DNA of 64,000 nucleotides from Mesorhizobium sp. NZP2298 (GTDB taxonomy: Bacteria; Pseudomonadota; Alphaproteobacteria; Rhizobiales; Rhizobiaceae), in assembly GCF_013170825.1 (NCBI RefSeq), contig NZ_CP033365.1, positions 4,724,001 to 4,788,000 on the forward strand. The letters run 5' to 3'. Below are positions 6,037-19,874 of the stretch, piece after piece. Numbering within the stretch: the stretch's first letter is position 1; every line of letters starts with the position of its first letter. The notes below the pieces were generated by a model. It had not been told where the DNA came from, ran no database searches, and saw nothing but the letters and a program-made list of their open reading frames with translations. Position numbers and translations under genes: made by a program.

Positions 6037-7077
6037 ATGAAGCGAATACTTCTTGCTGTCTTCGGTATCCTGGCACTGGCCTTTGCCACGCTCACGCCGG
6101 CATTCGCCCAGTCCAAGGGGACCGTCTACTATATGGTGCCGACATTGCTGGACGAGTTCCAGACCGGCTCGGTGACCGCGCTGGAGCTGTTCCTGAAACA
6201 GGTCGGCTACGAGATAAAGACGCTGAACGCCGACAACAAGACCGACGCCCAGCAATCGCAGATGAACGACGTCATCGCGCTGAAGCCAAAGGCGATCATC
6301 CTGGCGGCGGTCGATTTCAACGCTCTGAAGCCGTCCATCGAGGCCGCACGCGCCGCCGGCATCCCGGTGGTCGAGTTCGACCGCCAGATCACGTCGACAC
6401 CTTCCGACTTCACCTCGGTGGCGGGTACCGTCGAGATCGGCCATATCGCCGCCGACCAGGCGCAGAAGCTGTTGAAGGCGAAGAACGGATCGGTGAAGGG
6501 CAAGGTGCTACAGGTACTCGGCGATCCTGGCGATCCCTACACGCTCGACATCCAGAAGGGTTTCGAGGAGAAGATGAAGGCATTCCCCGACGTCAAGATC
6601 ATCTCGCTGCCGGCCATGCAGTGGGAAGCCAGCAATGCCGGCACCATCGTCGCCGACCAGATGCTGGCCAACCCCGACATCGACCTGATCTTCAGCCATG
6701 CCGCGCATCTCTCGGTCGCCGCCGTCGCGTCGCTCGAAGCCGCCGGCAAAAAGCCGGGCGACGTCATGCTGATGAGTTCGAATGGCGCGCCGGTCGGCCT
6801 CGACCTGATCCGCAAGGGTTGGCTCAACGTCGAAGTCGAGCAGCCGCTCTACGCGCAGGCCGCGGCCGTCGCCATGTTCATGGACAAGGTCGCCAACAAG
6901 CAGGAGATCAAGCCCGGCGACTACGACGTGCTGGGCCTGAAATCGACCGTGACCAAAGAAGCGTGGGGGCCGAACATCAAGATCCCGGGTGCCGCCATCA
7001 CCAAGGAAAACGTCGACAATCCGGCCTTCTGGGGCAACCAGAAGGCGCCGACGGATACCGTCAAACCGGTCGAATAG
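6037..7077 (+). CDS. Sugar ABC transporter substrate-binding protein
   Basis: Periplasmic binding protein of the ribose/galactose type (Peripla_BP_4). A Sec signal peptide ends near TPAFA-QSK. The start at 6037 is set by an AGGAG site about 8 bases upstream (longer in-frame starts would run into the previous gene). Mature length of about 320 residues is normal. The ligand is not predictable from sequence alone; the neighbouring ROK and SDR genes suggest a monosaccharide or sugar alcohol. Confidence 0.92.
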
Positions 7078-9042: not shown

Positions 9043-9720
9043 TTACCGAAACCAGTTGAACAGTTGTTCGAGCATTCCGGGCGGTTCCAGCGAGAACACG
9101 GCACGAAATGTCGTCGGCCGATCGCTGGAAAATGCCGATGCAAGCGGGCGAGAATAGGATGCCGTCCGTCCGTCATCCGATATCGTGCCACTTGTCTCGA
9201 TGATGCGCGGAGCCGTCACCGTCCATGCAATATGCCTGCCTGACATCTTCGCCAATATGAGGGTCTGCAGCCCTTGCGCCATCGGATCGTCGGCATACTT
9301 GTCGGTTGGCTTGAGACTGGGGAAATTGACGACGAATTCGTAATTGTCCCCTACTCGATTGAGCTGCACGCCTTGCTTCTTGTCTCCTCCGACACTGGCG
9401 TTCGAAAGAGCCGCAACGAGATCGTCTGTCTTGCCGGAGAAAAACAGCGAGCAGACCTCATCGCGGCCCTCGGTTTTCTGCTCGGCGGTTCCGGTTATGC
9501 CCGGCGACGACAACAGCTTGTCGGAACTGCACCATTTGCCGTTCGCGTTCTTGGCCATCGCCAGTAGCGAAGCATCCACCGCTATCCGGATATTGGCCGT
9601 CGCGGTCCCATCGCGCCGGAATGCCAGATCCTGCTTCATGTCGAAGCAGCCCGCCACCAACAGACATCCGACCAGCGAGACCACGATGTTGCGACGAACA
9701 GGGAATATCCAAAAACGCAT
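9043..9720 (-). CDS. Putative lipoprotein, function unknown
   Basis: 225 residues with a lipoprotein signal: a basic N-terminus, hydrophobic core and lipobox LVAGC, then a soluble domain with two cysteines (WCSS, VCSLFF). I place the start at ATG 9720 because the longer frame would run into the tRNA-Val gene. The pattern GCFDMKQDLAFRRDGTA resembles small envelope lipoproteins seen in rhizobia, but I recognise no characterised family. Single gene. Confidence 0.7.
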   Translation of the reverse strand: MRFWIFPVRRNIVVSLVGCLLVAGCFDMKQDLAFRRDGTATANIRIAVDASLLAMAKNANGKWCSSDKLLSSPGITGTAEQKTEGRDEVCSLFFSGKTDDLVAALSNASVGGDKKQGVQLNRVGDNYEFVVNFPSLKPTDKYADDPMAQGLQTLILAKMSGRHIAWTVTAPRIIETSGTISDDGRTASYSRPLASAFSSDRPTTFRAVFSLEPPGMLEQLFNWFR

Positions 9721-9825
9721 CACATCTACGTTCAAAACTTGGCTCGGTGTCTCTTTTCGCGGCACCCTTCGCAAAAAGCGGCCAGCCGACGATGCGAAAT
9801 AACCTATAAAAACCATAAGACTATT

Positions 9826-9901
<76 letters not shown>

Positions 9902-10117
9902 GCTCCGGCGCGACCTTTAAGCGGTCGGGACCGGGTTCGCAAGGCCAAATGAACAGCCGACGCCGTGTTCGCACGCCGGATTTGTTCACAGAATGGGGGC
10001 TGTCAAAAAACCTTCTCCAGTTTGTGTTTATGATGGTTTGGTGCGCTTGACACCCGGAGGCGAACCCCTTATCCACCGCCCCAACGACGAACACGGCTGA
10101 CACGTGCTCGTCAATGC

Positions 10118-10194
10118 GCGGGTGTAGCTCAGTTGGTTAGAGTGCCGGCCTGTCACGCCGGAGGTCGCGGGTTCGAGCCCCGTCACTCGCGCCA
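10118..10194 (+). tRNA. tRNA-Asp (anticodon GTC), integration target
   Basis: Complete cloverleaf with acceptor GCGGGTG/CACTCGC, anticodon loop CTGTCAC (GTC at 10152-10154), T-arm GGTTCGAGCC and encoded CCA. Its last 50 bases (10145-10194) are repeated exactly at 19825-19874, so the gene is the attachment site of the element downstream and its 3' half is restored by the element copy. Confidence 0.97.
10145..10194 (+). repeat. attL: 50-bp direct repeat within tRNA-Asp
   Basis: Identical base for base to 19825-19874. It starts in the anticodon stem and ends at the encoded CCA; flanking bases differ (G at 10144 against C at 19824; C at 10195 against A at 19875). Confidence 0.95.
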
Positions 10195-10254
10195 CTCTCA
10201 ATCCCTTGTTATACAAGGCTTTAATGGGAGTGGCGCTGAAGTTGAGTTGGACGA

Positions 10255-10290
10255 GTTTCAACTTTTTTCGCCGCCTAGTTTCAACTTTTT
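10255..10290 (+). repeat. Arm-like repeats at the left end of the element
   Basis: Two copies of GTTTCAACTTTTT (10255-10267 and 10278-10290) separated by a short GC-rich spacer. Matching copies lie near the right end at 19746 and, inverted, at 19785. Paired short repeats near both att sites are typical of arm-type sites for tyrosine integrases or excision factors. The repeats overlap the end of a possible small minus-strand gene. Confidence 0.5.
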
Positions 10291-10377
10291 GAACTCCTTG
10301 TGTTCCTGGCCGAGTAGCTTGCGACCTTTACGGCGGTGTTCGTCAGCAGTGCGCACTGCAACGAGATTGACCGGCAT
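10258..10377 (-). CDS. Possible small basic protein (39 aa)
   Basis: Minus-strand frame starting MPVNLVAVRTADEHRRKGRK, rich in Lys/Arg, directly after the tail-chaperone gene. In GTA-like and HK97-like gene orders a second small tail-chaperone gene often sits here, but I see no family motif. The ribosome site is weak and the 3' end overlaps the arm-like repeats, so it may be non-coding. Confidence 0.25.
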   Translation of the reverse strand: MPVNLVAVRTADEHRRKGRKLLGQEHKEFKKLKLGGEKS

Positions 10378-10402
10378 ATACGTCCGCTGAAGCGATTTAT
10401 TC

Positions 10403-10579
10403 TCATCTATGGAATTGCCCATCTTGGCGAGCGCCGGCAACACCGGCCGCAAGCAACGCGCGGATAGTGGTCAACGATGCGCCATCGTCAGAGTTGAGTT
10501 CTGCAACGATGTCGACAAACGGCTTCCCTGCCGACCGCTCCGCGGCAACCAAGGTATTGGCGTTAAATTTTAGGTTCAT
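10403..10579 (-). CDS. Phage tail assembly chaperone-like protein (GTA-gp10/TAC_11-like)
   Basis: 58 residues, starting MNLKFNANTLVAAERSAGKP. The layout of a beta-strand 'L-x-F-N-x-N-x-L', a helix, a short acidic loop and a second helix ending in LTTIRALLAAGV fits the small GTA-gp10/tail-tube chaperone family. Its ATG overlaps the stop of the HK97-gp10-like gene (ATGA), so the two are translationally coupled, as in head-tail connector operons. No tail tube or tape-measure gene follows. Family call is by pattern only. Confidence 0.55.
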   Translation of the reverse strand: MNLKFNANTLVAAERSAGKPFVDIVAELNSDDGASLTTIRALLAAGVAGARQDGQFHR

Positions 10580-11091
10580 GTGGTGGTGCCTTTCTTCGCC
10601 GCACGCGCCGCAATGCGCTTGGCCGATTTGTCTATTTCAGTTGCTAGATCGCCCTTGATGCTGCGTAGAACCTTGTTGCGATTTCCGCGTAGGGCCGGGC
10701 CGAGATACGGCTGTGCTGGCGAATGCCGAGTTCCAAATTCAGCGAACAGGGCATGCGGTGCCGTAGCAGCCACCCGCACCAGAGCTGACGCACCGCGGCC
10801 TGCCGCAGCACGATTTGCGTCGCGAGCGGCCGATGATGCGTTCTCGTCCGATCCGCCACCCGCCTTGGATTTGGCATAGGCGGCCTTGCCGGCGTTAGTG
10901 CGAACGACAGTGGCCTTGATGGATTCCTTCAGGTCGCCGGTCAGCACAGGCGCACTGGCCTTGGCGTCGGCCACGATAGGGGCAGCGGCCTTTTTCAGGG
11001 CGCGTTCCATGATCCCGCGCTGGGTCGATTTCTTGAATTCCTCGAGGTTCTTTTTGAGGTCGGCCAGGCCGTCGACCTTAAAGTTGGCCAT
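10576..11091 (-). CDS. HK97-gp10-like head-tail connector protein
   Basis: 171 residues starting MANFKVDGLADLKKNLEEF. The motif order is that of the HK97 gp10/tail-completion family: 'L-K-x-L-x-x-L/F' N-terminus, KKAAAPIVADAKASAPVLTGDLKESI, then HALFAEFGTRHSPAQPYLGPAL near residues 115-140. It would join the neck or tail terminator in a siphovirus particle. A 40-residue low-complexity Ala/Ser/Asp insert (about 76-110) is unusual. The longer upstream frame was rejected because similarity begins at this Met. Without portal and capsid genes nearby its partner must come from elsewhere, if it is used. Confidence 0.75.
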   Translation of the reverse strand: MANFKVDGLADLKKNLEEFKKSTQRGIMERALKKAAAPIVADAKASAPVLTGDLKESIKATVVRTNAGKAAYAKSKAGGGSDENASSAARDANRAAAGRGASALVRVAATAPHALFAEFGTRHSPAQPYLGPALRGNRNKVLRSIKGDLATEIDKSAKRIAARAAKKGTTT

Positions 11092-11353
11092 GGCTGTGCG
11101 ACCGCGCCGGGAAGCGTTGGGTGGATTTGGGCATGGGGTGTCCTGTGGAAAGTGGGCGAACGCCTGTGGAAAGCGTGCATTAGTGACGAATTGCGGCGCG
11201 TCGACGCGTGAATCATCTATCTGTAATGGTGATTGCCGGCGGCAACCTCTTTTCTGACAGCTTAGGCTGCACTCACACGGATGGCGGCGCGGCAATAATG
11301 CTTCGCTGGAGTGGCGGACCTAATTCCGCTTTAGAAAAAAGGGAGACGTCAAC

Positions 11354-11476
11354 ATGTCGACGTTGAAGTCAAAAGTTGTGAAAGTTAGGGCGTATTTCCG
11401 TACGCGCCTGGGCCGTCTTGAGCATGTTTGTGCTCATTTTCGGTCCTGGCCTCGCCAGCTTTCATTCGACTTTTAA
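11354..11476 (+). CDS. Possible small basic protein (40 aa)
   Basis: ATG 11354 follows AGGGAG with 7 bases between, a good ribosome site. The product (starting MSTLKSKVVKVRAYFRTRLG) is Arg/Lys-rich with a net positive charge and no recognisable domain. It lies head to head with the gp10-like gene and upstream of the membrane-protein/R-X4-H pair, which share its strand. Could be a real small protein or a leader; evidence is only the frame and ribosome site. Confidence 0.35.
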   Translation: MSTLKSKVVKVRAYFRTRLGRLEHVCAHFRSWPRQLSFDF

Positions 11477-11537
11477 GCTCGGCCTCGTAAACTGAGCCAG
11501 CCGCCGGGAATCACCTAAGCCTCAGAGGGAGACTCGA

Positions 11538-11822
11538 TTGGCATCTGACATCCTAAATACCATCGGCCTGACAATGGGCATGCTAGGCGTGGTCTTGATT
11601 TTCATCTGGGGGCCTCCGCTCCCTGATTTTGAGGAGAGCGTCGGACTTGCCCTCGAAGACGCCACAGTGCTTGCGGACGGGACGAGAATATCCGACATAA
11701 TCGACTCAAACAGACGACGAAAGTCGCGCCATAAGATCATATCTAGCATCGGCTTGGGTCTGATTTTTGTAGGATTTGGCCTCCAACTAGCGGCCCTGTG
11801 GCTGCCAGCGTTCATGCACTAA
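11538..11822 (+). CDS. Small membrane protein, two transmembrane segments
   Basis: 94 residues from a TTG start with GAGGGAG just upstream. Hydrophobic segments at about residues 8-26 and 69-91 flank a 40-residue polar loop ending in a basic patch (RRRKSRHK), which predicts the loop in the cytoplasm. No family recognised. It is 16 bp upstream of the R-X4-H protein gene and probably co-transcribed. Base composition here is lower in GC than the flanking chromosome, consistent with acquired cargo. Confidence 0.6.
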   Translation: MASDILNTIGLTMGMLGVVLIFIWGPPLPDFEESVGLALEDATVLADGTRISDIIDSNRRRKSRHKIISSIGLGLIFVGFGLQLAALWLPAFMH

Positions 11823-11838
11823 GCGCCGTAGGGGCACG

Positions 11839-12447
11839 ATGAAGCCAATTGCTGTCGATTTAGCGAACAACAAATTACTTCTAGCCGAACAAAGTTGCGC
11901 TCGGTTGCAGCAAGCCAACAATTATGAAGCTGCAGAGCAGGCGTGGGCTGATTTCCTCGTCGCTGTCGCGGCTACCTACTCAAAGCTGGAACAAGGCGCC
12001 AAAGGCGTCGGCAGAAGCGAGGCATGGTTTGGCCGCAGGAAGCACCAGCGAAAGACGGATCCGTTGCTTAAGTATCTTCATTTCGCACGGAACAGCGATG
12101 TGCATGGTATTGAACACATCACACATAGAGACGTTCCGACTATCGACGGGAAACCAATGGGTTTTCTGCCTGAGCACTTCGGAAGAGAAATTCCACTAAA
12201 GGTTCAGAGAGCCGATCCAATTACACATGAACCGATTGGCGAACCTTCCGATGCAACGCTTCGCGGTCCCAATATTGTACTTCGGACGGTCACAAATGCG
12301 AAATTTGGCGATGAGTGTGCCGTGCCAACCCAACATGAAGGTCACGCTATCGACGTTCCGACCCCGCAGATTATCGCGGAACTCGGGCTCAAGTACCTAA
12401 CGGCTATGGTTGCCGAGGCTCGGAGTTTAATTGTTCAAGGCGCATAG
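11839..12447 (+). CDS. Hypothetical protein with R-X4-H motif (HEPN-like?)
   Basis: 202 residues, start ATG with GGGG just upstream. Helical N-terminal half, then LLKYLHFARNSDVHGIEH: Arg84-Asn85 and His89 form an R-N-x3-H motif like the catalytic motif of HEPN ribonucleases. The C-terminal half (about 100-202) looks beta-rich and then helical, without a recognised domain. Together with the adjacent small membrane protein this is a plausible defence or toxin cargo pair. The motif alone is weak evidence; a non-nuclease role is possible. The 3' end overlaps a convergent phage-type gene by 44 bp. Confidence 0.6.
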   Translation: MKPIAVDLANNKLLLAEQSCARLQQANNYEAAEQAWADFLVAVAATYSKLEQGAKGVGRSEAWFGRRKHQRKTDPLLKYLHFARNSDVHGIEHITHRDVPTIDGKPMGFLPEHFGREIPLKVQRADPITHEPIGEPSDATLRGPNIVLRTVTNAKFGDECAVPTQHEGHAIDVPTPQIIAELGLKYLTAMVAEARSLIVQGA

Positions 12448-12586
12448 CCAGGTAGACGCTTACGACTAGATCGCGCATCTGCTGGCCGAGCATGTGTTCC
12501 CTAGCCGAGTATATCCCAGCTTCGATCATTGCCGGGGTAATGACCGCGATGTCGGCAGGCAATTCGTAGTTGATAATGTTAGGCAT
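12404..12586 (-). CDS. Small phage-type protein (60 aa)
   Basis: Starts MPNIINYELPADIAVITPAM and is predicted mostly helical. It resembles small connector-region proteins of unknown role that occur between phage head genes, for example through its ITPAMIEAG-x(5)-REH stretch. Its ATG overlaps the TAA of the gene fragment at 12579-12716, so it was once coupled to that upstream gene. Convergent 44-bp overlap with the R-X4-H cargo gene suggests cargo was inserted immediately beside it. Confidence 0.55.
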   Translation of the reverse strand: MPNIINYELPADIAVITPAMIEAGIYSAREHMLGQQMRDLVVSVYLAMRLEQLNSEPRQP

Positions 12587-12716
12587 TTTCGATCTGACCC
12601 CTCAACTTTTCAATCGCGGCGTTGTGCGGAAACTCGTCCGCGCGGTCGCCAGGGAAGGTCGGACTAGGTCCACGATGACCCCTCCGGGGGTCTAGATGGA
12701 CTTGGTGGGCTCGGCC
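12579..12716 (-). pseudogene. 3' fragment of a small gene, start lost or frameshifted
   Basis: An open frame of 45 codons with coding character (ends FPHNAAIEKLRGQIENA) and a TAA that overlaps the ATG of the next gene. The frame has no usable start codon. A strong ribosome site (GGAGG) with a GTG 7 bases on lies within it at about 12671, but that GTG is in another frame that stops after 23 codons. A one-base indel in a short gene, or truncation by the cargo insertion, would explain this. Confidence 0.35.
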
Positions 12717-12761
12717 CTAGGACCGGCTGCCAAGCCTAGCGATAACGCTAATACAGATTCT

Positions 12762-12789
12762 GCCTCGCGTGCGCGCAAGCGCGCGAGGC
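12762..12789. other. Strong GC-rich hairpin upstream of a small secreted-protein gene
   Basis: Stem of 11 bp beginning GCCTCGCG and closing CGCGAGGC with a 6-base loop. No T-run on either strand. It lies about 65 bases before ATG 12855 and could be part of its leader or a boundary between cargo and phage genes. Confidence 0.35.
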
Positions 12790-12854
12790 ACAAACGTGAT
12801 TTTGTGAGTGGCAGCAGATCGGTTACCCTACGTCAGCAACGAAGGGTGAACGAA

Positions 12855-13040
12855 ATGAAGATATTAGTCGCAATCGCTGCCGCACTGGGACTGTCCGTGT
12901 CCGCCGCTTCGGCAGAATGCGCCTTCCACTCCAAGGTATCGGCATCAGTCGACGCGCAGACTAAGACAGCGAGCGTCGAGAAGGCTGACACCACAGCCGA
13001 CACTTCGATAAAAAAAGAAGTGCCGCCAAAGACCGAATAA
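12855..13040 (+). CDS. Small secreted protein (61 aa), unknown function
   Basis: Starts MKILVAIAAALGLSVSAASA with a clear Sec signal peptide (cleavage predicted after ASA), then about 40 residues rich in Lys, Thr and Asp with one cysteine. Ribosome site AAGGG about 10 bases upstream. Tail to tail with the prohead protease gene, 3 bp apart. Not a phage structural gene; looks like cargo acting in the periplasm. Confidence 0.5.
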   Translation: MKILVAIAAALGLSVSAASAECAFHSKVSASVDAQTKTASVEKADTTADTSIKKEVPPKTE

Positions 13041-13043
13041 ACG

Positions 13044-13565
13044 TCAGCGGATTCCGCGTAGCCGCTGAGCCGCCTCGGCCCTGCGTCTGATGCGCTCGGT
13101 CGCTGCGGTGGCGTTGTGTTCGGCGCGCGTGAGGGCGGCGGATGTGGACTCGTAAGCAGGGAACGCCGTAAGCGTGATCTCATACAGGTCAACATCAGTG
13201 ATGGTCCGGAGCGGTAGACGATTGCCGCCGTCCTGCCAGTCCTCGGCACGCACCTGAAAGCCGAAGCTGCAGCCCTTAACGTCCTGACGTCCTACCGTGC
13301 CGATAGCTGTCTGCCCTTCAGGCGTCGATGGGTCAGCGTCCAGCGAGAACCAAAGACCAATCCTGTCTTCGCGCAATGTGAGCGTACCAGCCGAGACGCG
13401 CCCAAGCACGCGCCCGCTGTCGTGACTGAGGATAGCGACAACATCGGGCATATCTTTTAGCGTGCGAGTGAATGCCCCTTGCGCGATACGTTCGCGGAAC
13501 TCCCCGGCAATGACGGTCTCGCTGTTGAACATCACCGCATAGCCGGAGATGACGTTGCCTGTCAT
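13044..13565 (-). CDS. HK97 family prohead protease (S78)
   Basis: 173 residues with the family pattern: N-terminal GYAVMFNSETVIAGEFRERI, His48 in AILSHD, Ser100 in KGCSFGF and the late segment LYEITLTAFPAYEST. In HK97-type phages this protease cleaves the scaffold region of the capsid protein during head maturation. The start overlaps the upstream small gene (ATGA), with GGAG five bases before ATG. The major capsid gene that normally follows is missing; after the stop come unrelated plus-strand genes. Confidence 0.9.
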   Translation of the reverse strand: MTGNVISGYAVMFNSETVIAGEFRERIAQGAFTRTLKDMPDVVAILSHDSGRVLGRVSAGTLTLREDRIGLWFSLDADPSTPEGQTAIGTVGRQDVKGCSFGFQVRAEDWQDGGNRLPLRTITDVDLYEITLTAFPAYESTSAALTRAEHNATAATERIRRRAEAAQRLRGIR

Positions 13566-13741
13566 TTGCGCTCCAACTTGGCTTCCGCCCGGCCCAGCGC
13601 CGACTTGGCGCGGAGTTCGCGGGCAATCTTGATAGGATCCGTATCGGTATACTCTAGCGGCTTGCCAGGCAACTTGATGCGCCGCGACTTGCTGGTGGTG
13701 CGGGTGCGGGCCGTGTCTGCCTTTTCGATGTTAGACTGCAT
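13562..13741 (-). CDS. Small hypothetical protein (59 aa) upstream of prohead protease
   Basis: Starts MQSNIEKADTARTRTTSKSR and ends AKSALGRAEAKLERK; basic, helical C-terminus. Start supported by GGAGG six bases upstream. It overlaps the preceding gene by 11 bp and the protease start by 4 bp, so it is part of one translationally coupled string. In phage operons this position is normally held by the portal gene. No family recognised. Confidence 0.6.
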   Translation of the reverse strand: MQSNIEKADTARTRTTSKSRRIKLPGKPLEYTDTDPIKIARELRAKSALGRAEAKLERK

Positions 13742-14363
13742 AGCCAGCCTCCGTTACGTCTTTCACATATGTTGCGACCCGGCGCTGCGCGTCCCGATGG
13801 TCGCCCATGAAGAACGGACGGATAGGCCCGAGCGACGCCCACGAAACGCCTTCCGCTTCGATGGCCATGATCAGTTCATTGAGTTCGCCGTGCGCCTCGT
13901 CGGCCGCCTGCAGGGCGGTTACGAGGGCTGCAACACGCTTGCCAACTTCCGGCCCAACCGCATCACAAACAGCTTTGCCTGCCTTGGTTTCCAGTGCCAT
14001 GCGACGTTTCTGGATCTCGGCTAGAGCGGTCTCGCCTACCGCAATGCGATGGCGAGCGTCGGCGATGGCTTTGCGCTTTGTTGCCTTCGGGGAAGGATTG
14101 TCTTGCAAAAGCGCGGCCACCTCAGGGTGAATTTCTGGCGAGTCATCAACCGCCAATTCACGCTCGAATAGTTTCTGTTCCGCGCGATCGGCGCGAACCG
14201 CGGCGCTGATCTCGTTTTCTCTTTCTAGAAGGCGCGCCAAGTCTGGCAGCACTTCCGCGGCAGAAGGCACGCGATAGGCTTCAGGGTCGACCTTCGGCAC
14301 AACGCGCGGCGGGCGAACATCGACAGGTGCGGACTTGCGCGGGCGGGGGAAAATCGCTGCCAT
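13731..14363 (-). CDS. Hypothetical coiled-coil protein in phage operon
   Basis: 210 residues, Pro/Arg-rich N-terminus (about 1-40), then long charged helices (about 45-170) with coiled-coil character. Ribosome site GGAAGGA 7 bases before ATG. It is coupled to the 59-residue gene downstream and begins directly after the upstream gene. No domain recognised. A scaffold-like or packaging-accessory role would fit its helicity and position but is only inference. Confidence 0.6.
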   Translation of the reverse strand: MAAIFPRPRKSAPVDVRPPRVVPKVDPEAYRVPSAAEVLPDLARLLERENEISAAVRADRAEQKLFERELAVDDSPEIHPEVAALLQDNPSPKATKRKAIADARHRIAVGETALAEIQKRRMALETKAGKAVCDAVGPEVGKRVAALVTALQAADEAHGELNELIMAIEAEGVSWASLGPIRPFFMGDHRDAQRRVATYVKDVTEAGYAV

Positions 14364-14900
14364 TTAGGATTCCTTCCTGAATAGGTCTTGGATGACGTCA
14401 ACGAAGGCGCTGGCGTTGATGGTGGTGGATTTGCGGTGGCCGTTAGCCTGCCAATTCGCAGCCAACGCCCCAACAGGCACGAAACGCTCCGTGTGACCGC
14501 TGGTGGCGTCGTAAATGGTTACCTCAGGCCAGTTGCCGACGACTTCGATCCGGTCGCGGCGCAGTAGGTCGGCTTCACCGTGGATGGCAACGTCGGCAAT
14601 GACGTCGAGCGCCCGACCGGCCGTGTCGATGCTGTCCGGAGCGCCAGTCAGGTCGACACCACCAGGTGTTAGCGAACGATAGCGCGCAACTGCGTCTGGT
14701 GCCTCGTGCAGGGCAGTGTCGGCGGCGAGCGCGATGATTAACGACACCACATCGTGCGCGTCGAGTTCGGGCGCAATGCCCGGTCCGCCTAGAGGGAGCA
14801 CACCGCGCTCCTGCAGACGGCGAGAAATGGTAATGCTGCGGGATTTCGGAAATCCCAAGTGGTGCTCGATTGATGTCAAGCAGGCTCTAAGAGCAGCCAT
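14364..14900 (-). CDS. Hypothetical protein with N-terminal HTH-like segment
   Basis: 178 residues. The N-terminal 50 (LGFPKSRSITISRRLQERGVLPLGGPG) resemble a helix-turn-helix with a winged tail; the rest has a helical part with ALAADTALHEAPDAV and an acidic C-terminus. Ribosome site AAAGGAA upstream. It is the first gene after the terminator at 14946-14980 and heads the protease operon, the position often held by a small terminase subunit or a regulator. No terminase large subunit is present to test that idea. Confidence 0.55.
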   Translation of the reverse strand: MAALRACLTSIEHHLGFPKSRSITISRRLQERGVLPLGGPGIAPELDAHDVVSLIIALAADTALHEAPDAVARYRSLTPGGVDLTGAPDSIDTAGRALDVIADVAIHGEADLLRRDRIEVVGNWPEVTIYDATSGHTERFVPVGALAANWQANGHRKSTTINASAFVDVIQDLFRKES

Positions 14901-14945
14901 GGCGTGGCGTTCCTTTCATAGTTCGAAATTGCGTATGTGATGGGC

Positions 14946-14980
14946 AAAAAAAGAGCCGCGCTCCCGAAGGAGCAGCGGCT
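14946..14980 (-). terminator. Rho-independent terminator (minus strand)
   Basis: Hairpin 14954-14980 with two stacked stems (AGCCGC/GCGGCT and GCTCC/GGAGC, loop CGAA), followed on the minus strand by seven T (14946-14952). It would end transcription coming from the gene at 15195-15977. Confidence 0.8.
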
Positions 14981-15122
14981 GATTGGTCCCGCCTGATCTC
15001 TAGACCAATGACGGGATGCCCACGCCTGTGAGGGCAGGCAGGGCGGCGACGACCTAGGGAGAACGCCGCGAATTGTCGCTGGGTACTGCCCGAAGGTGCG
15101 CCCAGCGTCACGGGCAAGCCGT

Positions 15123-15150
15123 GAAACGAAAGGGCAGCCGAAGCTGCCCT
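15123..15150 (-). terminator. Second hairpin terminator (minus strand)
   Basis: Perfect 8-bp stem AGGGCAGC/GCTGCCCT with CGAA loop (15131-15150), followed on the minus strand by an interrupted T-rich tract. Placed 45 bases after the stop of the 15195-15977 gene; together with the hairpin at 14954 it insulates the protease operon from the replication side. Confidence 0.6.
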
Positions 15151-15194
15151 GTATCTCTCACCTATACCCCTGTGGGAATTTGAATTGGGTATGC

Positions 15195-15977
15195 CTATGC
15201 GGCGCGACGGACGGGTTTACGCCAGAACTCATCAACCGCCTGCATGCCGAGCATGACAAGCGCCCGACCAGCACCCTTTGCCCCGGCTTGATTTCCCACG
15301 CCGTGCTCGCGCCCGATTTTCTCTAATGTATCTCCGAATACGACGGCCGCCTCGAACGCTTCCCGCAACCAGCCAAGCACAGACTGCAACTCGGCCAATT
15401 CCCTGCCGCAATCGATATGATGCAATAGCGGCCAATCGCCATTCCACTTTTTCGCAACAGGCTTTGCACGCTTCTTGGTCTTATCGGGATCCGCCATCAC
15501 GGCGCGGGTGGCCGGCGTATCGAGGCGAGCTTTCTTGCCCTTGACCGTCTTCAGCCCCTTATCGACCAGATTGCCCGTGGATTCGTCTAGCCTGATGTCG
15601 GCCATCAGATAGATGTTCTCGGCGAGGTCGCGCCCAACCAAGTCATGCGGCCCATTCGCGACGTTCCAGAGATCGCGATAGCGTTCGGCCAGCGCCAGAC
15701 ACTGATCGTTTCCTTCCGCCTTCAGAAGCTTCTGCAATGGCCAGTCCACATTATCGTTGGCAGCCTGGCCGCTGTAACGGTTGCTTGTGATGCGCACAGC
15801 CTGCGCGCACAGCCGCCACTCGACAGACGGGCCGTCTGTTCCGTATCGGAAGCAGGGCTTGCCGCGGCGAGAGCTAGTGCGCGCGGGCATCCAGTCGCCA
15901 TCTGCGTCGTCAATGATCCGAGGCAATGCTTTCAGGTCTTCGGCCACGTCGAAGACGGGCCGTTCTGTCGTGTTCAT
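15195..15977 (-). CDS. Hypothetical protein, element-associated (260 aa)
   Basis: Start at ATG 15977 with GGGGA upstream (MNTTERPVFDVAEDLKALP). Mostly helical, with a central basic stretch of Lys/Arg (about 165-190) and a C-terminal helical segment (LAELQSVLGWLREAFEAAVV then GREHGVGNQAGAKGAGRAL). I recognise no domain. It sits between replication and morphogenesis genes and ends before two terminators, so it belongs to the replication-side transcript. Function unknown. Confidence 0.6.
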   Translation of the reverse strand: MNTTERPVFDVAEDLKALPRIIDDADGDWMPARTSSRRGKPCFRYGTDGPSVEWRLCAQAVRITSNRYSGQAANDNVDWPLQKLLKAEGNDQCLALAERYRDLWNVANGPHDLVGRDLAENIYLMADIRLDESTGNLVDKGLKTVKGKKARLDTPATRAVMADPDKTKKRAKPVAKKWNGDWPLLHHIDCGRELAELQSVLGWLREAFEAAVVFGDTLEKIGREHGVGNQAGAKGAGRALVMLGMQAVDEFWRKPVRRAA

Positions 15978-16064
15978 GTGGTGGTTCCCCAGGTGGTGGC
16001 GGCCCGAAGGCCGTAAGTGCCGCTTCCTCAAGCGGGTGGTCAGTTTTTATACAGGTTCGGCGGG

Positions 16065-16373
16065 CTAGGACTTTCGTCCACCCTCCCCCTGCGCCGCCTT
16101 TCGGGCGTCAGGGTTTTTGGGCGTTCTGAGTTCCTTGATTTCCTCGAGGAGGTTTTTGACCAGAAGTCCATAAACCTGTGTTAGCTCAGCTGGTGTCAGT
16201 TCGACCCGGATATCGTACGCGCCGGCATAGTTCACCTGCAGGTTGGCCGTCCCAAACAGCGTTGTCGTTCCGTCTCTAATGTCGGTGCCTACAATCAGAT
16301 TTTCGATCTGCTGGTCGAGCAGGATTACGCCTGTCTCGCCCGGATGATTGTGTGTTGTGGTCCTGATCTTCAC
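16065..16373 (-). CDS. Hypothetical small protein (102 aa)
   Basis: I set the start at GTG 16373 (VKIRTTTHNHPGETG) because GGAGG lies 5 bases upstream; the longer frame from a GTG at 16394 has no site. The product is predicted beta-rich then helical (LTPAELTQVYGLLVKNLLEE). No recognised family. It lies 87 bp upstream of the 260-residue hypothetical gene on the same strand. Confidence 0.55.
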   Translation of the reverse strand: MKIRTTTHNHPGETGVILLDQQIENLIVGTDIRDGTTTLFGTANLQVNYAGAYDIRVELTPAELTQVYGLLVKNLLEEIKELRTPKNPDARKAAQGEGGRKS

Positions 16374-16441
16374 GTTGGCCTCCTGCTTGATCACTCAGGT
16401 CTCAACCAATAATAGCATGCGGAACAAACCTTCGGGTCGCG

Positions 16442-16471
16442 GGGTTTCTCTGGCCACACAGGGAGAAACCC
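16442..16471 (+). promoter_or_regulatory. Hairpin that hides the ribosome site of the 16473 gene
   Basis: Perfect 9-bp stem GGGTTTCTC/GAGAAACCC (16442-16450 and 16463-16471). The GGGAG ribosome site of the following small gene lies in and beside the 3' arm and the ATG follows two bases later. Folding would block initiation, so translation may need a factor, a partner RNA or coupling. Confidence 0.5.
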
Positions 16472-16472
16472 G

Positions 16473-16637
16473 ATGATCCATTGGCTACTCAGAATTGGCG
16501 CCCTCTACGCGGCTTACAAACTCGGCGAAGCAGGCGGCCGCGCCCAGGCTCGCGCCGACATGCGTCTTCAGCCGCCGCTCGACTACGAGCGCTTGCCATC
16601 TGACCGCAACGAGGCGGAATTCGGCGAGCTGACGTGA
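16473..16637 (+). CDS. Small hypothetical protein (54 aa)
   Basis: Starts MIHWLLRIGALYAAYKLGEA: a short hydrophobic helix followed by a polar tail ending NEAEFGELT. It resembles tiny membrane-associated proteins of phages. Ribosome site GGGAG, within a stable hairpin. One of few plus-strand genes in the element and opposite in direction to its neighbours. Confidence 0.5.
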   Translation: MIHWLLRIGALYAAYKLGEAGGRAQARADMRLQPPLDYERLPSDRNEAEFGELT

Positions 16638-16653
16638 GCGTTGTCGTTTGCCG

Positions 16654-16854
16654 CTATGCCGCCTCGTCCTCGCTTCTGTTGTCATTGGCGGCAAGCAGCG
16701 CGACGACAGTCTTGCGGCTCGGTTCCACAAACGTGTGTGGACGGCGACCGGCCGGATTGGTGCCGTTCAGCAAAATGCGGCGCTCGTTATGGTAGGGGAT
16801 GGCGGCGTCATGGGCGCGCCAGTCGCGGCGAAGGCGATTTGTGGGGGTGGTCAT
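16654..16854 (-). CDS. Small hypothetical protein (66 aa)
   Basis: Frame from ATG 16854 (MTTPTNRLRRDWRAHDAAIP) ending VVALLAANDNRSEDEAA. Arg-rich and polar, with a purine-rich but weak ribosome site. The ending AANDNR is common in alphaproteobacterial small proteins. No family recognised. Confidence 0.4.
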   Translation of the reverse strand: MTTPTNRLRRDWRAHDAAIPYHNERRILLNGTNPAGRRPHTFVEPSRKTVVALLAANDNRSEDEAA

Positions 16855-17082
16855 GGTTTCTTCGGAGATAGGCGCTCGTGGCGCGTTCCGGCCTGGCCGG
16901 TCTTCATCGTCGCCAACGCGGCGGCGGTCTTGGATATTGTCGATATAGGCGTCGAGTGCGTGAAAATTCAAGACGAGAACTAAATATAGTGTCTGAGTGG
17001 CCGGAATGTCACTAATGTAGGAGGGACGGAAAAGCGAGTGGGGCAACCTGCCGCCCTAGCTCTTCGACCCGCACCCTGGCCG

Positions 17083-17736
17083 TCACACTGGTTCGAGCAA
17101 GGATAGTAACTCATCAGACAACTCGCGGCGGGTGATCTGAGCCGTTGCCTTTGACTTGGTATCTATTGCGTGCCAGAGAACAGAGCCCGTCTGACCGCAG
17201 AGGACCGCTGGAAGAATATAAGTATGCTGCGGAGATAGGGTGATTTTGCTCTTATTGCCTGCGGTTGCAACATCCATTGGGGCCTTTATAAAATCGGCGT
17301 TAGCTACTCGCATCTTAGCCAGCGGGACTCTTATCAACCGGAACTTTCGATATATCAGATGCAGCCGCTCGTCAGCCTTTCCTATGGGGGTATCCCTGAC
17401 GGTGCGCAATGTCTCGTATGAGGACAAAACCCATAGACGACTAAGCGCTATTTGCATGGTCGCAGCGAGGATGGACGACTTGCGTGGCTTTGGCGACTCG
17501 GTGGCACCGGCAAGGTGCTCGTCTTCCATGCATCTGATCGCCAAGTCGAGCATGCAGTCGGCGTGGTTCAACACCGGTTGAATGGAGCCATACTTTTCAG
17601 TCATTCGATGGGTCATGAGTACCCAGCGATTGGCGAGATCGGGTTGCTTCGCCATCGCAGCTTCAATGGCGAAGCCTATTTCATCAGCAATCATTGCATA
17701 TGATGACATGGCCTGGAGGTGATCAGCAACGGGCAT
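17083..17736 (-). CDS. Hypothetical protein (217 aa), likely cargo
   Basis: Predicted helical in the first two thirds (helices around LSRLWVLSSYETLRTVRDTP and LIYRKFRLIRVPLAKMRV), with a beta-rich C-terminus. Base composition is lower in GC than the chromosome. No R-X4-6-H motif and no known domain. It follows the iteron array downstream of the helicase, so it could be a replication accessory or a cargo protein. The first ATG (17736) was used; ATG at residue 10 is possible. Confidence 0.5.
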   Translation of the reverse strand: MPVADHLQAMSSYAMIADEIGFAIEAAMAKQPDLANRWVLMTHRMTEKYGSIQPVLNHADCMLDLAIRCMEDEHLAGATESPKPRKSSILAATMQIALSRLWVLSSYETLRTVRDTPIGKADERLHLIYRKFRLIRVPLAKMRVANADFIKAPMDVATAGNKSKITLSPQHTYILPAVLCGQTGSVLWHAIDTKSKATAQITRRELSDELLSLLEPV

Positions 17737-17786
17737 CCCTCGGTCGGATTTCCAAACGTCCTACTCTCTACAGGCGTGGATAAACC

Positions 17787-17892
17787 GGAAGTGGTTTCCA
17801 GCCACTTCCAGGGTGTTCCACCCTGCCGGGGGTATAAGGGGTGGAAGAACAGGGGTGGAACGGGTGGTAGGTGGGTGGAATGTAAGGTGGAA
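17787..17892. other. Iteron-like array, candidate replication origin of the element
   Basis: Between the helicase stop (17895) and the next gene. Contains direct copies of GGGTGGAA at 17839, 17853 and 17873, variant GGTGGAA at 17886, a partial GGGTGG at 17862 and one inverted copy TTCCACCC at 17816. Two inverted repeats lie beside them: GGAAGTGG/CCACTTCC (17787-17809) and AGGGTG/CACCCT (17810-17824). Repeats next to a RepA-like helicase gene are typical of phage and plasmid origins. Confidence 0.6.
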
Positions 17893-17894
17893 CA

Positions 17895-19460
17895 TCACTC
17901 CTCCACCTCTGAATCCGGACCAAAATCCTCTGCCGACACTATAAGACGCTGCCTCTGCTTTGATGGCGGGCCTTCCCAAACAACCTTCACGATGCCATCG
18001 GCAAGGAGCCGTTGCATAGCCGCCTCGAACTGCTTCCTGGTAACACCCTCGGCATCTGGCCGCGCTGCTAAAACGTTCGGCGCGTAGTTGACTCCCCTGG
18101 TCGAGGCTACGCGTTGGCCGGTTCGATTGACTGCGGAGAGCAAGCTCCGGAACGCCTCATCATGGCGCCTGTTTAGTAGGCCACTGACGGCGGTTGGCTT
18201 GCCATCGTCCAACACGAACACGCCATCTTGCCATCGCATCCGAAGTTCATTGCCGACCTTCCCGTAATTGATCTTTTTTGTCGTCAGCACGCGGGCGTCA
18301 GGGTCAATGTCATCCTTACCCTCCGGCCGGGTCAAATAGAGACGCGAACGCACCGAATTATTCCATGCCGTTGAGCCTGACGAGCCTGTGCCCGTTTGCA
18401 TGCCGGCAACAGACGGGTGAGCCAGAAGCATGATTGCGCAATCGCTCTCCATGGCCACCTTCCGCAGCATGGCGATGAATTGGCGAACCTGTGCCCGTTT
18501 GATTTCATCGCCACCAAAAAGGTCGGCCGAGGTATCCAGCACGACAAGACCTGGCTTGAGATCCTGAATGGTTACGACGAGCCGCTTCCAAAGAACTGTC
18601 GGCTCCATAGCCCCAAGCCGGTTAGGAACACACAGGAGTGCATCCCGATCGGCCAGAGGCAAAAGTCGGAACCGCCACATGTCTGACATGGCCATCTTGT
18701 GGTGACCGACAATATCTGCAAGCCTTCGATGGAACTCGTCTGCGCTGTCCTCTGCGCCGACGTAGAGTGCCGGCCTAGCCAAAGGTTCTAGGCCAAGCGT
18801 GTCTACCGACAGCGCACTCGCGGCGGCGATTTGCAGGGCAAGTAGAGATTTACCCACGCCCCCATCACCGTTCAAAATTGTGACCTGGCGCATTGGGACC
18901 ATGCCTTCAATGAACCATTCCCGCTTAGGCACGGGCAGCCCGCTCCAGTCAGCAGGATTAACGAGGAAGATTTCTTGATTGTCGTTTCCCCCAACGGGCG
19001 GCTGTTTGGGCTTTACCGCTCTCACCTTCAGCGGCTCGTCGTCAATGAGCGCGTCAGTGACGAGGCAGTGGGCGGCCGGACAATATTGGCCGCCGATCTG
19101 GCGCACCTCGGGCGTCCCACCTCTCCACAACGTCACGACTGATACATCATCGCCATGACCTAAAAACCTGCCGAAGCTGTCTGTCAGAACGCCAAGCCGC
19201 GGAACGTCTTCTGGCTCAAGTTCAGACCAGCTACCGGAAAATTTTTCGATGCTATCGCGGGTGGTGTTCGTCCAATCAGGTTGGCCGTCCGAAAAAGGCA
19301 CTAGCACGACGTCGCCGAACAACATGTCAGCATAGTCGGCGACGGTTTCTAGAGCGTGTTCACGTTGGTCGATGCTGATCAAACCTACAGCAGGTTCAAC
19401 GCCATCACCGAAGCCGGACTGTAAGGTGAAGGGAGCCATCTCATAGGCGTTAGGATACAT
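17895..19460 (-). CDS. RepA-like AAA family ATPase/replicative helicase
   Basis: 521 residues. An N-terminal part (about 1-165) of unknown fold precedes a RecA-type ATPase core of the AAA_25/RepA group: Walker A GDGGVGKSLLALQ (about 198-210), Walker B LVVLDTSADLF and sensor IMLLAHPS. The C-terminal 100 residues look like a winged-helix DNA-binding domain (TRKQFEAAMQRLLADGIVKVVW). Probably a hexameric helicase for element replication. The start overlaps the SpoVG-like gene stop by 11 bp. No separate primase is visible; the N-terminus lacks an evident primase motif. Confidence 0.82.
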   Translation of the reverse strand: MYPNAYEMAPFTLQSGFGDGVEPAVGLISIDQREHALETVADYADMLFGDVVLVPFSDGQPDWTNTTRDSIEKFSGSWSELEPEDVPRLGVLTDSFGRFLGHGDDVSVVTLWRGGTPEVRQIGGQYCPAAHCLVTDALIDDEPLKVRAVKPKQPPVGGNDNQEIFLVNPADWSGLPVPKREWFIEGMVPMRQVTILNGDGGVGKSLLALQIAAASALSVDTLGLEPLARPALYVGAEDSADEFHRRLADIVGHHKMAMSDMWRFRLLPLADRDALLCVPNRLGAMEPTVLWKRLVVTIQDLKPGLVVLDTSADLFGGDEIKRAQVRQFIAMLRKVAMESDCAIMLLAHPSVAGMQTGTGSSGSTAWNNSVRSRLYLTRPEGKDDIDPDARVLTTKKINYGKVGNELRMRWQDGVFVLDDGKPTAVSGLLNRRHDEAFRSLLSAVNRTGQRVASTRGVNYAPNVLAARPDAEGVTRKQFEAAMQRLLADGIVKVVWEGPPSKQRQRLIVSAEDFGPDSEVEE

Positions 19461-19689
19461 TGGCTGCTGCCCCCAAAGCCGCGGCTGCTGCCTGGCTGAT
19501 TTGTTCGGCGAATGCTGGAAGAAAAGTCACGGCGTGCTTGCCACACGCCTGCGGCGCGACGGTTCGCAGTTGGCCGAGGCGATTTGTGCGGAGTGCGAGA
19601 TTGAAAATGCGGAGATGCCCATCGATCTCTAAATCAAAATAGGCAAGCGTTCTCGATCCGGCTGCTGGCCGGATGGCGATGATATTCAC
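19450..19689 (-). CDS. SpoVG-like small protein upstream of helicase
   Basis: 79 residues from GTG 19689, chosen because AAAGGA lies about 8 bases upstream. The pattern VNIIAIRPAAGSRTLAYFDL...LRIFNLALR...LRTVAPQ...FLPAFAEQI matches the shape of the SpoVG family: two beta strands, a variable loop and an amphipathic helix. It overlaps the helicase start, so they are co-translated. As the first gene of the long minus-strand transcript it may regulate the element. Family call by pattern only. Confidence 0.55.
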   Translation of the reverse strand: MNIIAIRPAAGSRTLAYFDLEIDGHLRIFNLALRTNRLGQLRTVAPQACGKHAVTFLPAFAEQISQAAAAALGAAANVS

Positions 19690-19745
19690 TTGGATCGTCC
19701 TTTGGATTGAGATTAGCCGCGGTTGGGTCCGCGGGACTTTTTTTG

Positions 19746-19797
19746 GTTTCAACTTTTGCCGTCTTTGCCGCCCGTTATCGCGAGAAAAAAGTTGAAC
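19746..19797. repeat. Arm-like repeats at the right end of the element
   Basis: GTTTCAACTTTT at 19746-19757 and an inverted copy (AAAAAAGTTGAAC) at 19785-19797, mirroring the pair at the left end. The spacing to attR (19825) is 28 bases. The region also has to hold the promoter for the SpoVG-helicase transcript. Confidence 0.5.
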
Positions 19798-19824
19798 TTT
19801 TCAGCGGCACATATGAACAATCCC

Positions 19825-19874
19825 CCGGCCTGTCACGCCGGAGGTCGCGGGTTCGAGCCCCGTCACTCGCGCCA
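19825..19874 (+). repeat. attR: 50-bp direct repeat (tRNA-Asp 3' part)
   Basis: Exact copy of 10145-10194. It lacks the 5' part of the tRNA, so it is not a functional tRNA gene. It is followed by a stem-loop (CAAGTC/GACTTG) that probably was the original tRNA-Asp terminator. Confidence 0.95.

Follow-up and report, generated by a model that had tools for sequence, protein, structure and literature searches.

The window analysed here is a 64,000-nt stretch of DNA from Mesorhizobium sp. NZP2298 (contig NZ_CP033365.1, positions 4,724,001-4,788,000), and the subject of this report is a satellite-like insert of 9.7 kb at its tRNA-Asp gene. In the following account, G with a number denotes a genome compared, the host being G000, and L with a number denotes a locus fetched or an IMG/VR contig. 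The attachment gene, tRNA-Asp (gtc), was called intact by ARAGORN at 10118..10194 on the plus strand, and its 3' end forms attL (10145..10194, plus strand), the left copy of a 50-bp direct repeat that recurs as attR at 19825..19874 (plus strand). The perfect repeats described in the first-pass annotation, which was made from the letters of the window, were confirmed as 100% identical, and just two copies of the repeat were detected in the 7.34-Mb host genome by a search that allowed up to 3 mismatches. The G+C content was 0.52-0.62 in the insert, mostly 0.59-0.66 in its surroundings and approximately 0.57 just outside either end. In G012, G021 and G009, tRNA-Asp was followed after approximately 190-220 bp by a region matching the window from 20790 onwards, which by our reading encodes a ribokinase-like gene, and in G039, G033, G025, G038 and G031 the corresponding distance was approximately 0.9-1.1 kb; the window holds the 9.7-kb insert plus 0.9 kb in the same interval. 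The tRNA-Asp sites of these eight genomes are empty or otherwise filled. The right flank is itself variable, since the 13 bases to the right of attR matched the empty-site flank imperfectly (63-bp match of 93.7%, the 50 bp included) and the 0.9 kb between attR and 20790 had no match at the eight tRNA-Asp sites.

Read from the right end, the minus strand of the insert encodes c5, Rep, four unmatched proteins, C2, C1, c13, S78 and an HK97-gp10-like protein, and the plus strand encodes orfP, c9 and small open reading frames (ORFs). The few phage assembly genes mentioned in the first-pass annotation were recovered in profile searches. Thus, the S78 prohead protease (13044..13565, minus strand), which stands without a capsid gene, matched Pfam Peptidase_S78 at 3.5e-44, and the HK97-gp10-like neck/tail completion protein (10576..11091, minus strand) matched Pfam PF04883 at 3.4e-10 and phrog_5 at 1.8e-24. 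The latter protein, scanned as 10576-11163 with the ATG at 11091 as its likelier start, matched gp10 of a related element, L173, at 55%. Next to S78 lie c13 (13562..13741, minus strand), a small basic protein with homologues in sister elements, C1 (13731..14363, minus strand) and C2 (14364..14900, minus strand), the last two of which were assigned by alignment. C1 is all-helical, with long helices in an AlphaFold model of mean pLDDT 82, and is perhaps scaffold-like, while C2 served as the marker of the family. The remaining minus-strand proteins are hypothetical; one (15195..15977) matched IMG/VR contig L028 at 47%, another (16065..16394) had no Pfam or PHROGs match and resembled at 79% a sequence beside the tRNA-Asp of G022, and two more (16654..17046 and 17083..17736) had no Pfam or PHROGs match. 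A 60-aa ORF (12404..12586, minus strand) matched L064 positions 6686-6847 at 67%. The plus-strand features are a 94-aa ORF without meaningful family match (11538..11822), orfP (11839..12447; phrog_23516; 77.5% to L064), c9 (12696..13040), a small protein common to the sisters, and a small ORF (16473..16637) also present in G001, G181 and G022.

The RepA-like helicase of the first-pass annotation proved to be an AAA_25 ATPase (Rep, 17895..19460, minus strand; Pfam 1.1e-31), a helicase-like initiator that matched two pieces in G001 at 72% and 90%. Upstream of rep is the small c5 gene (19450..19752, minus strand; profile match 7e-26), and just 3' of rep is an array of five GGTGGAA heptamers in both orientations (17816..17892). 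All five copies of GGTGGAA/TTCCACC in the element fall within this interval, as against a maximum of three copies of any heptamer per 130 bp in 60 first-order Markov simulations of the element. The iterons, previously suspected from the letters alone, are therefore real; a tandem repeat search returned nothing, in keeping with their spacing and mixed orientation. The array and rep plausibly constitute a replication-origin module with a putative origin. A tRNA-Gly called by ARAGORN at 17762-17835 overlaps this iteron/hairpin region downstream of rep and is probably a false positive. Heptamer clusters beside rep were noted at 8 of 11 loci, the window included, the simulations standing behind the window cluster and behind none of those at the ten other loci. 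The repeated unit at the rep end was again GGTGGAA at L019 and L062 and differed at L056 (CGGAACA), L063 (GCGGCAC), L065 (the near-palindromic CCGTACG), L173 (AAGAACG) and L172 (TGCGCCA), and the scan revealed nothing clear at L192, L059 and L060. Four more loci were inspected for GGTGGAA only, which was present in three copies at L058 and in two copies near the contig end at L057 and formed no cluster at L061 or L067. Thus, the first-pass picture of a bounded satellite-like element with a rep-iteron module and an incomplete set of phage genes was upheld.

That annotation had also stated that no recombinase and no tail gene were visible. The former statement holds insofar as no intact recombinase was found in the window element, but a C-terminal remnant of an integrase-like gene, 54 codons in length, is present near the tRNA 3' end (10258..10428, minus strand), and the latter statement was mistaken. 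Aligned with the 428-aa protein that G132 carries at tRNA-Asp, the remnant was 74% identical to residues 375-428, and its DNA match to G016 and G132 ended at 10428. From approximately 10444 upstream, where the tail-protein match ends, the frame corresponds to codons 1-45 of a small tail gene, the 5' part of which (10429..10579, minus strand) matched the phrog_2115 tail protein at 5.5e-7. The same frame (10403-10579) matched L173 positions 9670-9981 at 44% over 43 aa, and the L173 gene lies between gp10 and the tape measure, a position that makes the product tail assembly chaperone (TAC)-like. The ends of the DNA and protein matches place the junction at approximately 10429..10444, and the fusion of a truncated tail gene to the end of an integrase-like gene is, as judged from these matches, the scar of an internal deletion. 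A second loss was evident from comparison with L064, which shares orfP, the 60-aa ORF, c9 and S78 with the window copy. In L064, the genes of the small terminase (TerS), c11 and c12 separate c9 from the 60-aa ORF, whereas these two are only approximately 110 bp apart in the window. No significant match was obtained in the window copy with the profiles of TerS, c11, c12, AlpA, the common integrase, the tape measure or the fibre protein. Since the integrase/tail deletion is joined by the missing TerS-c11-c12 stretch, at least two losses separate the window copy from its sisters, and this copy appears to be a deletion derivative.

When the G016 copy of the integrase-like gene was used as query, matches were noted in 20 of 146 Mesorhizobium genomes. 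The gene is whole in G166, G132 and G163, where frames of 457-462 aa with 84-89% identity lie beside tRNA-Asp, and partial at tRNA-Asp in G016, G014, G020 and G035; the host retains the stub alone. The designation integrase-like was adopted because of the place of the gene at the tRNA 3' end, because of motifs of the kind known from tyrosine recombinases and because the name integrase is borne by 4 of 120 homologues listed, most of the others being hypothetical or unnamed. Two Mesorhizobium homologues, one of C1 (E5Y79_28385, 76%) and one of the integrase-like protein (E5Y79_28330, 74%), each lie on a 46,684-bp contig, presumably the same one, which supports the stub as part of the element rather than of an older guest. 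The tRNA-Asp gene is an insertion hotspot in Mesorhizobium. Segments of approximately 1.7, 2.5 and 3.6 kb occupy the space between att-like copies at this gene in G016 (L132), G020 (L133) and G014 (L134), respectively, and the integrase-like fragments that adjoin it in these genomes and in G035 (L131) are accompanied by different genes. In G022 (L125), positions 1828-2328 match window positions 16089-16597 directly beside tRNA-Asp in a rearranged neighbourhood.

Seven complete repeat-flanked elements of 14.8-18.4 kb were recognised at different sites, four of them in tRNA genes. These are the elements of G183 (17.1 kb, direct repeats), G103 (18.4 kb, tRNA-Thr), G125 contig 8 (17.2 kb, with a weak repeat of 18 bp only), G117 (17.8 kb, tRNA-Pro), G101 (17.6 kb, 27-bp terminator-like repeat), G181 (17.7 kb, tRNA-Gln) and L173 (14.8 kb, 49-bp repeats at tRNA-Lys). 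Direct repeats bounded 6 of 11 loci scanned and were not detected at the other five, nor at four of five loci scanned later (a single repeat of 19 bp was noted at L193). Profiles for c5, C2, C1, S78 and TerS, which were built partly from the same sister sequences that they then matched, were positive in all seven complete elements. The common integrase and AlpA profiles, of similar origin, matched six of the seven and neither matched G117, which carries another integrase (PHROGs integrase 1.2e-27), so that an integrase is present in 7/7. G117 shares with the window the placement of the integrase gene next to the tRNA and of rep at the opposite end. The common Rep profile matched four of the elements, and other large proteins occupy the corresponding place in the remaining three. 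A tail-gene match was obtained in every complete element, weakly in one. Thus, the tape measure profile matched three, and other tail genes were noted in four (G183, G181, G101 and, weakly, G103), including DUF2460 tail proteins in G183 and, by similarity, in G181; the TAC-like gene was found by profile only in L173, its 5' part being that in the window. The order in L173 is C2, C1, c13, S78, TerS, c12, a 263-aa ORF, gp10, TAC-like, tape measure and integrase. Twelve large tail ORFs were assigned to tape measure, tail fibre and baseplate families (best 25 of 69 families). Accessory genes of the sisters, with possible cargo or defence roles, include matches to a TIR domain, a DNA ligase, a methyltransferase and a ROS/MucR regulator.

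These comparisons bear directly on the proposal of the first-pass annotation that an integrase-less element of this kind would be an unusual type, a proposal for which the examination of sister copies had been named beforehand as a refuting test. With an integrase in each of the seven complete sisters and a stub of an integrase-like gene in the window copy, the integrase-less type is ruled out. The window copy is a scar, not a type of its own.

The absence of capsid, portal and large terminase genes is a different matter. Matches to PF05065 (capsid) numbered 11 in 6 of 14 genomes and matches to PF04860 (portal) 8 in 4 of 14, and the large terminase families PF03354 and PF03237 were matched 9 times in 7 of 16 and 26 times in 14 of 16 genomes. 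None of these matches shared a contig with a C2 locus, save for those on the chromosome of the window, which are at least 1.4 Mb away, in a search that for capsid and portal left out G473 and G094 and that included some short sister contigs (5.5 kb for G158). The test can see such genes, because G006, G051 and G019 have four ordinary loci at which S78 was within 1 kb of portal and capsid. Six of the elements contain 85 ORFs of at least 120 aa; the 44 that were otherwise unassigned were scanned together with six from L173, one stitch-crossing ORF being left out and the others having been assigned by similarity or covered by other scans, and no capsid, portal or large terminase was detected among these 50 (best 25 of 31 PHROGs families; 25 Pfam families). 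These findings indicate that the absence of capsid and portal genes is common to the sister loci searched and is not peculiar to the window copy, whereas the integrase and TerS were lost in the window copy; the possibility, raised at the outset, that capsid or integrase genes had been lost only here is borne out for the latter and, at the loci searched, not for the former.

The C2 marker was found in 14 of 146 Mesorhizobium genomes, including M. qingshengii Jales19 (two loci), M. caraganae LMG 24397, M. tianshanense CGMCC 1.2546, M. hawassense AC99b and Mesorhizobium sp. Root157 and Root552. Thirteen loci were fetched from 12 other genomes, a weak C2 match in G169 (E 8.7e-4) being left out, and S78 accompanied C2 at its locus in the window genome and in 11 of these 12, G019 being the exception; the gene is interrupted in G181 and G044. 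Among 397 genomes of the order, C2 matches were noted in 8, the window's own included, and six places were fetched, with three other weak matches left out. C2, C1 and S78 occurred together on both G473 contigs and at both G094 loci, in pieces at one of the latter, and two IMG/VR contigs also hold this module. The weak-C2 loci of G398 (L196) and G464 (L197), which belong to other genera, matched Rep and tape measure, the former also AlpA and integrase and the latter also TerS; both are perhaps part of a wider set of tail-carrying satellites.

Selection on the shared genes was estimated from dN/dS ratios (omega) of pairs with pN below 0.35, many distant pairs being saturated at synonymous sites. 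For S78, the two G125 copies gave an omega of 0.042, comparisons of G103 with these copies 0.046 and 0.057, the pair G183-L172 0.082 and all other pairs for which a value was obtained 0.097-0.236. The corresponding values were 0.10-0.42 for C2, 0.15-0.30 for C1 and 0.05-0.10 for Rep (window versus the two G001 pieces). An S78 omega this far below 1 speaks against simple decay, and His48 and Ser100, presumably the catalytic residues, were invariant in 11 aligned sequences. A protease conserved in elements without a capsid gene is probably in use, either on the capsid of another or for some other purpose.

In comparisons with 50,697 phage records, no match was found for C2 or, by tblastn, for TerS. 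Among 8000 scored candidates from a protein database, 3783 were related to TerS at E <= 0.001, and many of the 120 relatives listed were from Rhizobiales genera; related satellites may thus extend beyond the genomes that C2 marks. S78 matched 500 phage records, all below 60% identity and the best among those listed at 46%, including bIL312 and vB_KppS-Ant of 15-17 kb. Partial matches to the L173 tape measure were obtained in 780 records, the best among those listed being Sinorhizobium phage phi2LM21 (54% over 40%). The phage-record matches of S78 and of the L173 tape measure pointed to no helper. A prophage-like region of the host (G000:C1:7256000-7275900, L181) contains capsid, portal and TerL by Pfam and, by our reading, TerS, gp10 and a protease of S49 rather than S78 type; it was considered as a helper and is a possible one, but nothing ties it to the element. 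Elsewhere in the host (G000:C1:3284301-3287293), a Terminase_6N match is split over approximately 3 kb, as in several other Mesorhizobium genomes, and perhaps marks a gene-transfer-agent locus.

Taken together, these results make it likely that the window element represents, in defective form, an integrative phage satellite family of Mesorhizobium and its relatives. Replication and head functions may still be encoded by this copy, which is probably unable to excise or to direct packaging by itself. Several points weigh against this interpretation. Helper dependence, induction, excision and particle formation are predicted from gene content, and a capsid of an unrecognised family could have been missed by profile searches. 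The S78 gene is not universal, as G019, G398 and G464 have C2 loci at which neither profile nor tblastn located it, and some relatives are damaged in C1 (G183, G181), S78 (G181, G044, one G094 locus) or Rep (G001). The integrase-like protein had no integrase match in Pfam or PHROGs, no useful PDB match by sequence search and no profile similarity to the integrases of the sisters; its identity hangs on position, motifs and few named homologues, and the stub could derive from an older resident of the tRNA-Asp hotspot.

The alternative that survives best, although we consider it unlikely, is that these loci are ordinary prophage remnants, that is, members of a siphophage lineage losing head genes by decay, of which the window copy is the most decayed. 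Its clear deletions, the interruption of core genes in G181, G183, G044, G001 and one G094 locus and the resemblance, in our reading, of the structural genes to those of siphophages would all be expected of such remnants. Decay does not readily yield seven repeat-flanked elements with the same core at different sites, the six from Mesorhizobium measuring 17.1-17.8 kb in five cases and 18.4 kb in one, nor would it explain why capsid, portal and TerL were found in none of the seven, why S78 omega values remain well below 1 (0.042-0.236) or why C2 and TerS are unmatched in the 50,697 phage records.

It is less probable still that the window element is, as the first-pass annotation proposed, a cis-mobilisable one that moves by means of an integrase borrowed in trans. 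The att copies are identical, rep, the iterons and the head genes are open and homologous integrase-like genes occur at tRNA-Asp of other species, as this explanation would have it; yet the host lacks a homologue of the cognate integrase-like gene except for the stub, the same trimmed element was present at 0 of 13 other C2 loci fetched from the genus and the tail gene is cut at the junction. Least credible is the proposal that intact members are small autonomous phages or tailocin-like elements with an unrecognised capsid family, for which G103 might be cited, with at least two larger ORFs (302 and 438 aa) that lack a Pfam or PHROGs match. Neither of these two resembles an ORF of the five other elements mapped, and portal and large terminase are missing as well.

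If the elements are indeed satellites, their gene content suggests how an intact member would operate. An active helper phage would cause the element to excise, and the element would then replicate from its rep-iteron origin. Its TerS would bring the large terminase of the helper to element DNA, helper capsids would be matured by the element's S78 protease, perhaps with C1 as scaffold, and tails would be fitted with the element's own tape measure, chaperone and tip or fibre proteins. That alphaproteobacterial satellites in this way refit both ends of the particle, with their own protease, a possible scaffold in C1, their own TerS and their own parts in stolen tails, is a tentative proposal that we hold with somewhat more doubt than conviction. 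A head protease that is selected for in the absence of a capsid gene raises the questions of whose capsid is cut and whether head size is set or the helper excluded.

Comparison with known satellites reveals likenesses to several and identity with none. P4-like satellites have an integrase, AlpA, their own replication and a dependence on helper particles, with the alpha primase, sid and psu as marker genes. The Mesorhizobium elements differ from them in the presence of tail and protease genes, and P4-type Pfam families did not turn up in the protein scans of the window, which included no search dedicated to them. Phage-inducible chromosomal islands (PICIs) are not known to carry tail genes or other phage structural genes, except those that redirect packaging or capsids. 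Gram-negative PICIs are described as having an integrase, AlpA, a replication gene beside an origin and sometimes terS (PMC6092414), and the mean size reported for PICIs is 9.5 kb (PMC10803314). At the family level, the present elements are similar in integrase (7/7), AlpA (6/7) and the heptamer cluster beside rep (8/11) but differ in size (15-18 kb), in the S78 head protease (7/7) and in their tail genes. Capsid-forming PICIs, reported to average 14 kb and to make their own capsids (PMC10803314), are of similar size and also have a head-gene component, whereas no capsid, portal or TerL was found in the Mesorhizobium elements. Similarly, the Streptomyces satellites Mulch and Flayer are reported to encode genes for encapsidation (PMC10690885) and thus resemble the elements described here in self-encoding part of the particle, but the latter have tail parts and no capsid that could be found. 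Satellites with a protease have precedents, since prohead proteases figure in a preprint on marine elements as members of a gene set characteristic of tailed phages or known satellites; the same preprint speculates that some satellites supply tail parts and pirate their capsids (PMC12324425). As far as titles and the opening lines of abstracts go, no report of a solo prohead protease without a capsid gene in a satellite was found among the papers listed, and at the same depth, which does not extend to the full texts of papers naming phage satellites together with Rhizobium, none was found of a satellite from Mesorhizobium or Rhizobium.

The nearest precedent is provided by the phage-inducible chromosomal island-like elements (PLEs) of Vibrio cholerae, which are approximately 18 kb in size (PMC10803314) and are reported to encode a tape measure, a chaperone and, in PLE11, hub proteins, to build chimeric tails and to take the capsid and other tail parts from the helper; in 2026 they were called the first satellite family known with chimeric tails (PMC12987554). 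From these descriptions, PLEs and the present elements are alike in size, and of the tape measure and tail assembly chaperone that PLEs bring, the former was matched by profile in three of the seven complete sisters and a TAC-like counterpart of the latter in L173 only, apart from its 5' part in the window. In contrast with PLEs, the elements described here are alphaproteobacterial, usually carry AlpA, often occupy tRNA sites and add a head protease and TerS. The PLE host is Vibrio and its helper ICP1, and the named sister hosts are Mesorhizobium. If the proposed mechanism is true, satellites with chimeric tails would have arisen a second, separate time, and these would be the first with a solo head protease. 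Thus, if Mesorhizobium elements build chimeric tails, the refitting of tails would be a general strategy of satellites and not an oddity of those in Vibrio.

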